In this document: positions 58,368 to 63,052 of the stretch, in pieces
Numbering within the stretch: position 1 is the first letter of the stretch
Layout: the number at the start of each line of letters is the position of its first letter
NCBI RefSeq assembly: GCF_000426705.1
Contig: NZ_AUFW01000012.1
Span: 124,001-188,000 of the forward strand
Direction of reading: 5' to 3'
DNA: 64,000 bases
Source: Spirochaeta cellobiosiphila DSM 17781
GTDB lineage: Bacteria; Spirochaetota; Spirochaetia; DSM-17781
Made by a program: the position numbers and the translations under genes
Notes under the pieces: model-generated
Database searches by the model: none
Seen by the model: only the letters and a program-made list of their open reading frames with translations
Told to the model about the DNA's origin: nothing

Positions 58368-58391
58368 AAGCCCCGTTGGGGGCTTTTTTTA
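58368..58391 (+). terminator. Terminator after deoD
   Basis: AAGCCCC / GGGGCTT stem with loop GTTG and a seven-base T-run. It isolates deoD from the following structured region. Confidence 0.93.
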
Positions 58392-58504
58392 TGCCCTTTC
58401 CATCCCATACTCCTTGGAAACTCCCGTTGTTAAGTATTCTTGTTAAGCAGAATAAGAAAAAAGTGCGAAAAAACTTCCAATTCCTGAAAAAAACTTTCAA
58501 AAAA
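58392..58504. other. Phased A-tracts between deoD and the structured region
   Basis: Runs of 5-7 A centred near 58460, 58471, 58491 and 58502, roughly one or two helical turns apart, three of them continuing as ACTT. This is the pattern of intrinsically curved DNA. It would lie in or upstream of the promoter for the RNA and HU-type gene. Confidence 0.45.
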
Positions 58505-58911
58505 CTTCTCGATTTTCCCAAAACAGCTGAGAAGAAGCCTATGTAAGGGGAAGAACCAAAGCCCACAAGCCAAGGACCCAAGCATACCGGCTTTCACACC
58601 CCTCTCCTTACCCCCGAGCGTTGCTCAGGGAAATAAACAAAACAGAAAAGGAACAAGGTAAATTGTAAACTCCCAGGCTAAAGGCCACAGCCAAGGAGAA
58701 CAAAGCCTATAAGTTCCGGGCAAAGTAGCTAAAAGCTACCAGCTAGGCCAAAAGCAAAGTTCAAAGTAGTGAACTTGCCAGAAGGCCGAAAGTCGAAAGA
58801 TTTGTCCCAAGGACAAGGAAGAGATCTGAAGCCAAAGCGCAGTGTACTCCCTGTACATGAGCATTTGTCTTCAGGTCGATGACGCCGTAGTTGGGACAAA
58901 GATGAGACGCC
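58505..58911 (+). ncRNA. Candidate large structured RNA (leader of the HU/DUF4469 gene)
   Basis: No coding frame, but many nested complementary pairs. Checked helices: CTTCTC 58505/GAGAAG 58529; GTAAGGGGA 58543/TCTCCTTAC 58603, enclosing AAAGCC 58558/GGCTTT 58589; GAGC 58616/GCTC 58623; GGAAC 58650/GTTCC 58713, enclosing CTCC 58670/GGAG 58695 and GGCT 58676/AGCC 58689; GTAGCT 58725/AGCTAC 58734; GGCC 58746/GGCC 58784, enclosing AAGTTC 58757/GAACTT 58771; TTTGTCCCAA 58801/TTGGGACAAA 58891, enclosing GATCTGAAG 58823/CTTCAGGTC 58869 and TGTAC 58843/GTACA 58853. Two helices need G-U pairs that exist only in plus-strand RNA. It ends 3-14 bases before the HU-gene ribosome site, so a regulatory leader or a processed RNA are both possible. 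No known RNA family recognised. Confidence 0.55.
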
Positions 58912-58928
58912 CCAGGAGAGTTATATTT

Positions 58929-59627
58929 ATGATTAATTACTATTTACACCAAAACAAACTAGGAACAGCAAAAGAAGACAGCCTATTCATCGCCCGAGTC
59001 AAACCAAACCTTCATGTTAACCATGATGATATGATTGGCTTGATGGCAAACAAGAACACCACCGTATCCCGACAGGACATTGTGGTTGTTATGGATCTAC
59101 TAAAGGAAGTGTTAGAAGAACAACTGGTATTAGGAAATACGGTTAGTACGAACATTGGTCGCTTTTATGTATCCCTGGGAGGAGGCTTTGCTTCGACTTC
59201 CGATGAATATGATTCTACGAAACATAGCCTTAGGATAAAAGCTAAACCTAACACCCAATTAGTTAGTACTGTACAAGGTAAGAGTAGCGTTACCAGAGTT
59301 CGCTATAATCCTGTGACTCCTGTTATCGATACGATCTATGATATGACCAGTCAGAGCTTTAGTTCTGATCTAGTAGCAGGTGCTCTTATTGAACTTAGGG
59401 GGAACTTATTTAAGGGTGAAGATTCTGATAAGGCAGGTGTGTTCTTTATCAATTCTGATACGGATGTTGTGACTAAGATCAGCTCTGTTTATAGGACGTT
59501 GCCTTCTAGCATTTTGCTCTCTATACCCGAGGATTTGGAAGCAGGGAATTACACGGTTGAGGTTCGGACTATGTCGGGATCTGTGTTGAGAACTGGATCT
59601 TATTATGATGAAGTGACTGTTATGTAG
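58929..59627 (+). CDS. HU-like DNA-binding protein with DUF4469-type C-terminal domain
   Basis: 232 residues from the ATG at 58929 (AGGAG ten bases upstream); a longer in-frame reading would enter the structured RNA. The N-terminal 120 residues resemble HU/IHF-related proteins: NTTVSRQDIVVVMDLLKEVL, LVLGNTVSTNIGRFYVSLGG and KHSLRIKAKPNTQLV. The C-terminal 100 residues (VAGALIELRGNLFKGEDSDK, SSILLSIPEDLEAGNYTVEV) match DUF4469, an Ig-like domain found after HU-like domains in Bacteroidetes and spirochaetes. Probably a nucleoid or regulatory DNA-binding protein. Followed by a strong terminator. Confidence 0.87.
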   Translation: MINYYLHQNKLGTAKEDSLFIARVKPNLHVNHDDMIGLMANKNTTVSRQDIVVVMDLLKEVLEEQLVLGNTVSTNIGRFYVSLGGGFASTSDEYDSTKHSLRIKAKPNTQLVSTVQGKSSVTRVRYNPVTPVIDTIYDMTSQSFSSDLVAGALIELRGNLFKGEDSDKAGVFFINSDTDVVTKISSVYRTLPSSILLSIPEDLEAGNYTVEVRTMSGSVLRTGSYYDEVTVM

Positions 59628-59659
59628 ATCTCCCGTAGAACTTGTTTAAGTGATAATTT

Positions 59660-59693
59660 AAGCCCTCTTGGTTACGGCCAAGGGGGCTTTTTT
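59660..59693 (+). terminator. Terminator after the HU/DUF4469 gene
   Basis: AAGCCCTCTTGG pairs with CCAAGGGGGCTT (12 bp, one G-T) and is followed by TTTT. Confidence 0.93.
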
Positions 59694-59697
59694 ATTT

Positions 59698-59880
59698 GTC
59701 CAGTGGAGAATTCTGTAGGTGACAAGTGTGGGTGAGGGAATTTGTCAATTGAGGAATTCTGTCATTGTCAATTGTCAGGTGGTCTGGGTGACAGGCTAGA
59801 ATTGTGTGGGTGACAGGCTGAAATTCTGTCAGTGGCAATTGGGAGGGGTGAGATATGAGTGACAGTTGGGGTTTAGGATG
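59698..59880. repeat. G-rich degenerate repeat block
   Basis: Short units recur: GGGTGACAGGCT twice exactly (59786-59797 and 59808-59819, a 22-bp period), GAATTCTGT or AATTCTGT four times, and TGTCAATTG twice. Strand-biased (G/T rich on plus) and non-coding. It lies between the HU-gene terminator and AT-rich DNA of the helicase/TIR region. Confidence 0.65.
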
Positions 59881-60109
59881 ATATGGGAACACCAATTAAG
59901 ATACCTTTTTATGAACATGAATTTCATATATCACTAATCTGTCTTTCATATGGCCCTCTGAACAGTTGTTAATATTGTTCATAGCTATTGATTTTTTAAC
60001 TTTGATTGAAGATTTGGGTATAAAATGGTGATTATTTTGTAGTTTTTAGGATTTTATTTGATCACGGGAAAAGTTGAGATGTAATATGTTGTATAGAACA
60101 AAAGGATAA
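59881..60109. other. AT-rich upstream region of the helicase gene
   Basis: 229 bp without a gene. A possible promoter is TTAACT (59996-60001), 17 bp, TATAAA (60019-60024). ATGAA/TTCAT inverted repeats occur near 59911-59926. No attC or attI site was recognised here. Confidence 0.4.
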
Positions 60110-63052
60110 ATGAGTAGAATGCTTTTTTTTATTGATAATATTGATAAATACCAATCAGATTCTGTAAATGGCCTTAGAATATGCCAGTTAGGTGCGATCT
60201 GGTCCATTAAAAGTCATTTTACCATTTCAAATAATCCAGCACTTGTAAGTCTTCCAACTGGTTCTGGCAAAACGGCATTAATGATGGCATTATCATTTGA
60301 ATTGACTGCCAAAAAAGTACTTATAATAACTCCTTCACAAGTAATAAGGCATCAAACAAACCAAAAATTCTCAACACTAGATGATCTTTGTAAAATTGGA
60401 GTATATAAGAATATAGATAACCGTTTTCCTATAGTACATGAACAAATAGGATATATTAAGACAGATGATGATTGGAAGCAATTAAGCGAAGATTATGATG
60501 TGGTTGTTTCTACTCCTAACAGTTCATCTCCTCATCTATTGAATGTAGCTAAACCAAATGAAAATTATTTTGATTTAGTTTTTATTGATGAAGCTCATCA
60601 TACTAGTGCTAATATCTATGATTCAATTTTGAATTCTTTCAAAGAATCAAAAATAATTCTCTTAACTGCCACACCTTTTAGAAGAGATAAAAAAAGAATT
60701 CCTGGAAATCTTATTTATCATTATCCAATATCAAAAGCTATACAGGATGGAATTTATAGAGTTGTTAAATATTTTCCAGTAAATACTACAATACCAGAAT
60801 CTAAAAAGGATAATGATTTAATCCTGGCAGAATATGCAAAGAAAAAATATCAAGAAGAAATTAAAACTAATAATGATGCTAAAGTTCTTATCAAAACGGA
60901 TTCTATTTCTCATGCAGAGAAACTTATAAAGGTATATAAATCAATAAATTTTAATGTAGAATTAATCCATAGTAAGAAAACTGATAAGCATAACAATAAG
61001 ACCGTAGCTGACTGTAAAGATAATAAAATCAGTGGAATTATTTGTGTTGGTATGGTTGGTGAAGGATTAGATATTCCTACTCTAAAAATGGCTGTATTGC
61101 ATAAGTCCCCACAAACACTGCCCGCAACAATACAATTTATAGGTCGCCTATCTAGATTTAATAATCAAACGGGGAATTCTATATTAATTTCAGATCCTAA
61201 TTTCATAGAAGGAGAAGTAAAAGAACTATATAGATATGATGATGGATGGGAGAAAATCATACCAAAATTAATAGATAGAAAAATACAAAATACGACATAT
61301 GTAGGAAGACTTGGTAATCAGGCAAATTATGAATTATCTTTTTCTAAAAATGAAATCAATCCTTTCTTTACAGTAACCGTTTATGAATTGCTAAATGGTT
61401 TTACAATAAAAGAAAACTATATTACTGAGCTCCCTTCTGATATCGAATACTATATTCTAGATCGAGATGATAATGATCCTTACATATTTATTACTAAGGT
61501 TGAGGAAAATATTCCTTGGGTAATTAACTCTCTCTATACAGAAATGAATCACGAAATTCATATTTTCTATATAAAAGATAACTTTCTTTTTGAACATACA
61601 AGTTCTGAATTTTATAGTCAGAAAATTAGAAATATATTATTTAACAAAGATACTTATAGGAAAGCATCAAGCAAAACTGTAATACAAGGATTAAAAGATA
61701 CAGATGGCCATTATGTAATGGTTGGTATGGCGAATATAACTGGTACCACGCACAGTAATCCCAAATATAAAACATATATGGGTAATGAAATTGAGAATTC
61801 ACTAAGATTGACTGATGGTAGAAACTTTACTGCTGGGCATGCTTTATCAAAACATGGTGAAGATACTAGGGGAATAGCCACAAAAAACAGTAAGATTTGG
61901 TCAATTAAAAGGGATTCTCTTCAGAAATTTATTGATTGGTGTGATCATTTATATACTTTAATCCATTTACCAGATATTGATTTTCAAATCCCTAGAATGG
62001 GAATGTTGGCAAAGAGTGAAATTATCACCGAAATTCCAGAAGAACCAATTTCTATTTATTTTGATGATATTGAGTTACAACAAAATATATTAAAACTATA
62101 TATTGAAAATGAGGACTATACTAATCCAAACATAAAAATTTCAATTGTAAATATGTCATTAGATAAGAAAAGTATATGTTGTATGATGAATCTTGATTTT
62201 ATAGATGATCCAATTGAATGCAAATATGAAATTGATCAAAAAGGATATTGGGAAGTTGAGACAGATAAACAAATTAGAATTAATATTAATATGATAGATA
62301 ATAAAAATAAAAGTTATATAAATTTATCTGAATTCTTACAAGATTATTCGCCTCTCATTATTTTGCAGTCAGGAAGAACTATTAAGAATAACGTATTATT
62401 CACTCCTCAAGTCCAAAATGAAAGATTTGATCAAGAATTATTTTTATCAGATAAAATTGATTGGGATGATACAGATATATTCAAGGAAGCAGAAGAACCT
62501 GATTCTAAATATAAATATAATGTGCAAGAAAAAGTAATATCAGTAATTTCTAAAGGTCGGGATGATAAAGATTACTTTTTTGTTGATGATTCTAGTGGTG
62601 AAGTTGCAGATATAATATGGTTCAATAATACAAGCACAGATAAAACAATTTATTTTATTCATTGTAAATTTAAGCATAGAAGTTCAAAGGCTGATCAAGA
62701 TAGAACTCCAAACGGAGATAAAAAAAATATAACGGAGCTGATAGATCAGGGAATTCGTTGTGGGTTTTGGATAAAATCTCCAAATTTAATAAGCCAATTA
62801 ATTGGAAGGTTAGAACGTACTCAGAAATCAAAAGTTTTATTCAATAAGGAGGTTGAATTCAGAAATTTTGAATTTGAATATTCTCCATATGATTGGAAAT
62901 TTAAAGTAATTTTAGTTCAACCGGGTTTGGCTAAAGAAGCAGTATTTAAAACAAGTCAAATTACTAATATCGAGAAAATGTTAACTACATTATTTGATAG
63001 AACAAGAAGTATAAATGCTGATCTTGAAATATGGGGAAATAAGAAATCATAG
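60110..63052 (+). CDS. Superfamily II helicase with nuclease-like C-terminal region (putative defence protein)
   Basis: 980 residues; AAGGA before the ATG. Helicase lobes: Walker A LPTGSGKTALM (GSGKT 51-55), DEAH 160-163 (LVFIDEAHHTS), TATPFRR (186-192), and motif VI QFIGRLSRF (342-350). About 450 residues of unknown structure follow. Near 828-855, SSGEVADIIWF and YFIHCKFKH resemble a PD-(D/E)xK-like core; relatives that I recall carry GE(I/V)AD...HCK in a C-terminal nuclease-like domain. Codon use is AT-rich, unlike the upstream genes. A TIR-domain gene follows after an attC-like site. A DNA-targeting defence role is inferred. Confidence 0.83.
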   Translation: MSRMLFFIDNIDKYQSDSVNGLRICQLGAIWSIKSHFTISNNPALVSLPTGSGKTALMMALSFELTAKKVLIITPSQVIRHQTNQKFSTLDDLCKIGVYKNIDNRFPIVHEQIGYIKTDDDWKQLSEDYDVVVSTPNSSSPHLLNVAKPNENYFDLVFIDEAHHTSANIYDSILNSFKESKIILLTATPFRRDKKRIPGNLIYHYPISKAIQDGIYRVVKYFPVNTTIPESKKDNDLILAEYAKKKYQEEIKTNNDAKVLIKTDSISHAEKLIKVYKSINFNVELIHSKKTDKHNNKTVADCKDNKISGIICVGMVGEGLDIPTLKMAVLHKSPQTLPATIQFIGRLSRFNNQTGNSILISDPNFIEGEVKELYRYDDGWEKIIPKLIDRKIQNTTYVGRLGNQANYELSFSKNEINPFFTVTVYELLNGFTIKENYITELPSDIEYYILDRDDNDPYIFITKVEENIPWVINSLYTEMNHEIHIFYIKDNFLFEHTSSEFYSQKIRNILFNKDTYRKASSKTVIQGLKDTDGHYVMVGMANITGTTHSNPKYKTYMGNEIENSLRLTDGRNFTAGHALSKHGEDTRGIATKNSKIWSIKRDSLQKFIDWCDHLYTLIHLPDIDFQIPRMGMLAKSEIITEIPEEPISIYFDDIELQQNILKLYIENEDYTNPNIKISIVNMSLDKKSICCMMNLDFIDDPIECKYEIDQKGYWEVETDKQIRININMIDNKNKSYINLSEFLQDYSPLIILQSGRTIKNNVLFTPQVQNERFDQELFLSDKIDWDDTDIFKEAEEPDSKYKYNVQEKVISVISKGRDDKDYFFVDDSSGEVADIIWFNNTSTDKTIYFIHCKFKHRSSKADQDRTPNGDKKNITELIDQGIRCGFWIKSPNLISQLIGRLERTQKSKVLFNKEVEFRNFEFEYSPYDWKFKVILVQPGLAKEAVFKTSQITNIEKMLTTLFDRTRSINADLEIWGNKKS

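Follow-up and report, generated by a model that had tools for sequence, protein, structure and literature searches.

A large structured RNA in the probable leader of a multicopy HU/DUF4469 gene of Spirochaeta cellobiosiphila, with a candidate Shine-Dalgarno switch

Features of the HU/DUF4469 locus

We analyzed 64,000 nucleotides of the Spirochaeta cellobiosiphila DSM 17781 genome (contig NZ_AUFW01000012.1, positions 124,001 to 188,000), referred to as the window; positions are those of the window unless another contig or locus is named. An HU/DUF4469 protein gene follows the deoD terminator, and the two are separated by a long intergenic region. The features discussed first are:

58368-58385, deoD terminator
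58428..60090, plus strand, repeated unit consisting of the left-end motif, promoter-like block, RNA leader, HU/DUF4469 gene, terminator and attI-like segment
58428..58447, plus strand, left-end motif TGTTAAGTATTCTTGTTAAG, whose pattern is matched exactly at seven genomic sites, each of them at an RNA copy
58487..58520, plus strand, conserved promoter-like block AAACTTTCAAAAAACTTCTCGATTTTCC, common to the RNA-less HU paralogues L056, L057 and L060
58524..58928, plus strand, structured leader RNA of about 390 nt, from folding z scores, alignment and covariation
58929..59627, plus strand, HU/DUF4469 protein gene (PF14848, PF14734, PF18291)
59660..59697, plus strand, intrinsic terminator of the HU gene

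The original prediction, made from this sequence, placed an undescribed large structured RNA at 58505-58911, within about 400 nt between the deoD terminator and the HU/DUF4469 ribosome binding site. We likewise found no convincing open reading frame in these 400 nt and rejected a coding function; although the HU frame extends upstream without a stop as far as a GTG at 58842, the copies have their common start at 58929. The predicted extent proved too small, as the leader reaches the Shine-Dalgarno (SD) sequence and the whole repeated unit is 58428-60090.

A search of 58505-58911 with the Rfam 15 covariance models gave no family above its gathering threshold, the only match in the window being a tRNA elsewhere, and the best sub-threshold matches were at chance level. 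RNase P RNA, tmRNA, SRP RNA, 6S RNA and introns were ruled out by the lack of an Rfam match. OLE, GOLLD, ROOL and HEARO resemble the leader RNA in being large and multibranched, although none of them was found in it at Rfam gathering or E-value thresholds.

Folding and covariation of the leader RNA

The minimum free energy (MFE) predicted for the plus strand of 58505-58911 was -132.6 kcal/mol compared with a mean of -97.0 kcal/mol for dinucleotide shuffles (z -6.6), and none of 100 shuffles folded as well, bearing in mind that predicted folding energies have large errors at 400 nt. Full-leader z values lay between -4.2 and -8.4 for all six full copies present in the genome. The consensus fold of these six copies, which are paralogues of a single genome with mosaic exchange, comprised 87 pairs, of which 23 showed changes on both sides that kept the pair. 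At the consensus pairs 95.2% of cells were paired; none of 500 shuffles attained the pair-count or covariation values of the alignment, and structures in which one side of each pair was displaced by 1-3 columns had pairing of only 27-42%. Both checks proposed with the original prediction, folding against shuffled controls and a search for compensatory changes, thus came out in favor of a real structured RNA.

The predicted RNA is multibranched with A-rich joining regions, and its 5′ domain is nearly invariant among copies. In the 3′ domain a 10-bp outer stem (TTTGTCCCAA/TTGGGACAAA) encloses a 9-bp inner stem (GATCTGAAG/CTTCAGGTC), which in turn encloses a hairpin, in agreement with the nested helices of the original prediction. 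These stems provided the clearest compensations, the outer one changing to TTTTGAATCA/TGATTCAAAA and the inner one to AGTAAGAAG/CTTCTTGCT between copies. We consider the structure of this large leader RNA well supported.

Duplication of the RNA with the HU gene

The repeated unit was 92% identical to the copy on contig C1 over 1,674 alignment positions, an alignment that spans 58427 to 60090, and it was partial in other copies. Further copies of the RNA, 82-94% identical, were found on contigs C1, C2, C4, C24 and C29 and at the broken contig ends C6 and C26. The left end, TGTTAAG...TTGTTAAG, occurred seven times, each adjoining unrelated host sequence, so the copies have a sharp left end in common. 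The seven motifs together with the C4 copy, which has the RNA without the motif, give at least eight copies in the 3.95-Mb genome, a lower bound as contig breaks fall inside repeats. There are about 13 HU/DUF4469 genes in this genome, and all six complete RNA copies lie directly upstream of one. For the C29 and C2:1-900 copies RNA identity was 82-90% whereas the HU proteins were just 38-44% identical; RNA identity reached 90% where that of the proteins was 38%. Duplication across the genome has thus involved the RNA element and the HU gene together.

Two copies were irregular. The C24 leader contains an internal deletion. In C29 (oriented L058 about 280-380) the two halves of the 3′-domain outer stem do not match, the left being like the window copy and the right like the C2b copy; this broken stem points to recombination or an assembly chimera. 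Several local features accompany the units. A GTA_holin_3TM gene directly follows the type B HU gene on C29 (oriented L058 1321-1776) and also on C3 (L061), and the block common to C29 and C3 extends as far as oriented L058 1841. A 22-bp tandem unit, TGGGTGACAGGCTAAAATTCTG, follows the HU terminator at 59785-59829 of the window and is present in higher number in the C24 unit.

The RNA as a probable 5′ leader

In the RNA-less HU paralogues L056, L057 and L060, the same AAA..CTTCTCGATATTCC block is followed by GAGAAG, and the distance from the block/GAGAAG to the ATG is about 40-55 nt. RNA-bearing copies carry an extra ~385 nt between GAGAAG and the ATG. No terminator was found between the RNA and HU. 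No sigma-70 promoter matched at the leader; CTCGATA might be read as a sigma-28-like element. Because no terminator precedes HU, the promoter-like block is that of RNA-less paralogues and the fold closes on the HU SD sequence, the RNA is best read as a long 5′ leader that would be transcribed as part of the HU/DUF4469 mRNA. Judged from sequence, the locus has a structured RNA in 5′ leader position.

The original prediction had a separate RNA in mind. That a large structured RNA outside Rfam exists was borne out; its separateness was not, given the missing terminator, the fold closing on the SD sequence and an upstream block that is also common to HU paralogues without the RNA. A stand-alone non-coding RNA, acting in trans or as a scaffold and merely lying upstream of HU, would suit the length, multiple branches, A-rich joining regions and strong fold, and the higher identity of the RNA than of the HU proteins indicates tighter conservation of the leader than of the gene. 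With all six complete copies directly upstream of an HU/DUF4469 gene added to the above, we regard this explanation as improbable and retain the reading as a leader.

A candidate SD switch

Three segments of the leader are complementary to one another in a manner suggestive of translational control:

58914..58920, plus strand, SD sequence AGGAGAG of the HU gene
58602..58611, plus strand, candidate anti-SD CUCUCCUUAC, of which 58602-58608 (CUCUCCU) is complementary to the SD sequence
58543..58551, plus strand, candidate anti-anti-SD GUAAGGGGA, complementary to 58603-58611

Near the 5′ end of the leader, the pyrimidine segment CUCUCCUUAC would have two mutually exclusive partners. Pairing with the SD sequence would close the multibranched domain and block ribosome entry. 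Conversely, UCUCCUUAC, which overlaps the anti-SD, can pair instead with the upstream GUAAGGGGA, in which case the SD sequence would be free. A trigger may set the balance, and the HU protein or some other ligand could be that trigger.

The complement between SD and anti-SD is 7 bp in type A leaders, whereas type B leaders and that of C24 have 8 bp. After shuffling, leaders reached a 7-bp SD complement in 2-4% of cases and an 8-bp complement in 0.2-0.4%; in three of the six copies such a complement has a percent-level chance of arising in a pyrimidine-rich leader. The SD sequence was sequestered in the MFE structure of five of the six copies, the alternative helix being 2-8 kcal/mol higher in those five, and in the C4 copy the alternative helix was the MFE structure by 0.7 kcal/mol. 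Since the SD helix and the 5′ domain are invariant, covariation cannot test either. The exclusive pairings of the anti-SD suggest a translational switch, and we consider a switching mechanism moderately likely.

Like riboswitches and protein-autoregulated leaders, the HU leader lies in cis before the start codon and has predicted exclusive pairings that could hide or free the SD sequence. It differs from them in having no known aptamer and no Rfam match, in its length of ~390 nt, in its copy number of at least eight and in its restriction to a single one of the genomes searched. On balance we favor a ~390-nt structured HU/DUF4469 leader that probably acts as a bistable SD switch responding to a trigger, with a 3′ domain taken from, or akin to, a dispersed repeat.

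The 3′ domain and a dispersed palindromic repeat family

The 3′ part of the leader contains:

58801..58900, plus strand, 3′ domain, a member of a dispersed palindromic repeat family (model R1)
58842-58847/58853-58858, plus strand, core hairpin of the 3′ domain with an invariant G-U pair

R1 is a covariance model built from ten family members. The window copy is one of these source sequences and scored 87.9 bits against the model, which places it in the family. The core reads CAAGG..P2..AAGC-GNA-G..hairpin..U-GA-GC..P2′..ACGC. In 26 aligned matches, an alignment fitted to R1 and therefore leaning towards its structure, 97.6% of cells were paired, 8 of 12 pairs covaried and none of 500 shuffles did as well. 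One G-U base pair was invariant in 25 distinct members, while neighboring pairs covaried.

R1 matches were found in 11 of 118 genomes of the class. The spirochaete G002 has about ten copies of the core, some with long terminal inverted repeats (TIRs), and the core also occurs in genomes G046, G431 and G451, in Pseudomonas and Halomonas plasmids and in several IMG/VR contigs. In S. cellobiosiphila all six R1 matches lie in HU leaders, and we therefore rejected the idea that the 3′ domain moves here as an element of its own. A search of full texts for the sequence of the core, in order to find a published name, returned nothing relevant. The 3′ hairpin domain is derived from, or of common descent with, a dispersed palindromic repeat. 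Consequently, 'undescribed' holds for the RNA insofar as it matches no Rfam family but not for its 3′ quarter, which belongs to this family and has an ERIC-like core anatomy.

The core is like that of MITE-like palindromic repeats with TIRs, which form free-standing intergenic elements in G002, the Pseudomonas and Halomonas plasmids and IMG/VR contigs; the leader domain differs in lacking a surrounding long TIR and in never being free-standing in this genome. According to reviews of MITEs, transcripts of such repeats act on neighboring mRNAs (PMC2229807, PMC10969869).

The 3′ domain also resembles the core of the ERIC/IRU elements of enterobacteria (GGAGYTTAC-loop-GTAARTGA), with a G-U closing pair and opposed GA. 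ERICs are intergenic elements of about 127 bp with TATA-type terminal repeats. The best place for R1 in two E. coli ERICs was exactly the core hairpin, at a weak score (9.7 bits, E 0.13 in 1.3 kb). Because a search of 315 kb with R1 detected no ERIC at E≤1, we do not claim ERIC membership. ERIC-type terminal repeats were absent at 58801-58900, the flanks being leader sequence, and in contrast to an ERIC the domain is part of a longer leader.

Kinship with this family raises the possibility of an element working at the DNA level, in which cruciform-forming palindromes would bind an HU-like protein or serve transposition and RNA folding would be incidental. Cruciform DNA is a binding target of HU-family proteins, repetition involves the entire unit and has a sharp limit on the left, and some members of the repeat family have long TIRs. 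However, the plus strand folds much better than the minus strand (z -3.2 for the latter at 58505-58911). The original prediction had pointed to G-U pairs that work only in plus-strand RNA; in agreement, the consensus pairs contained 28 G-U cells and 5 A-C cells, as expected of plus-strand RNA, a count biased to that strand because the consensus was derived with plus-strand energies. The G-U pair invariant amid covariation also argues for RNA, although single-stranded DNA hairpins could keep such a pair too. Overall, an explanation at the DNA level seems unlikely to us.

The leader might instead be a relic, debris of inserted repeats that spread with the HU module and has no regulatory function. 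Free-standing relatives of the 3′ domain elsewhere, the mosaic copies, the C24 deletion and the broken C29 stem are all compatible with this. Against this, compensatory changes have kept the stems intact, the 5′ domain is near-invariant and the 3′ domain is confined to HU leaders in this genome, which together make a relic very unlikely. 

Occurrence in other genomes

The 5′ domain, searched with model R2, was found in 1 of 394 same-class genomes, namely this genome, and was absent from the other 393. A DNA search for the whole RNA found none in 60 genomes of the class, and a match in G002 turned out to be the 3′-domain repeat family. Phage and plasmid collections gave no whole-RNA match, and on this basis we rejected the view that the RNA as a whole came from a phage or a plasmid; a 19-nt match in one viral contig was unsupported by R2. 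The 5′ domain was not found at HU relatives in Spirochaetales MAGs. The HU/DUF4469 relatives in these MAGs (L106-L111) have short, different leaders with small, seemingly compensated hairpins, one of them directly 5′ of the SD sequence.

Integron-like surroundings

Downstream from the HU terminator lies a further element of the repeated unit:

59985..60092, plus strand, attI-like segment heading a cassette array, with seven copies in the genome

This segment follows the window, C1 and C24 copies, in C24 after an inserted IS-like stretch. Varied genes come after it, including those for ResIII/DEAD helicases, a TIR protein and a PHP-ATPase-like protein. In some copies the RNA/HU module heads an integron cassette array. 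Integrons were found only in Treponema among spirochaetes in a 2013 study (PMC3607928).

The other attI-like copies are at C24:547045, C9:622, C1:132470, C24:552317, C2:199631 and C1:112149; the common sequence, ~100 bp, stops just past ATATGTT and gives way to different genes. Broken integron-integrase-like genes adjoin such segments (L052 16844-17627, minus strand; C24:547.4-547.9k; C9:312-461), with stop-interrupted frames and best TIGR02249 matches far under the cut-off. Between cassette genes are attC-like palindromes, each about 105 bp long and bounded by GCGTTA (oriented L055 11705-11815, oriented L063 9395-9498). The first cassette genes are defence-like (window 60110-63052, L052 5271-6578, L028 5241-7427, L054 4907-7117) and encode a ResIII/DEAD helicase, a TIR protein, a PHP-ATPase (PADLOC PDC-M49A, 2.7e-31) and an Mrr-helicase.

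A more far-reaching proposal is that bistable leader RNAs of this very large size (about 390 nt) form a new class, which controls a multicopy HU/DUF4469 chromatin-type protein and arose partly by incorporation of a palindromic hairpin from a dispersed family. As some copies head integron cassette arrays rich in defence-like genes, the state of such an array could on this view depend on the protein or its RNA. We put this forward as a possibility that is, taken as a whole, doubtful.

Significance

The leader would add to the known RNAs a large, well-supported structured RNA that is absent from Rfam and tied to an HU-family protein, and its two helices of 7-9 bp would provide a concrete, mutable candidate switch. 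The repeat family gains a covariance-supported definition with an invariant G-U pair. Our results suggest that a regulatory leader has taken in a member of a dispersed hairpin family whose range covers distant phyla.
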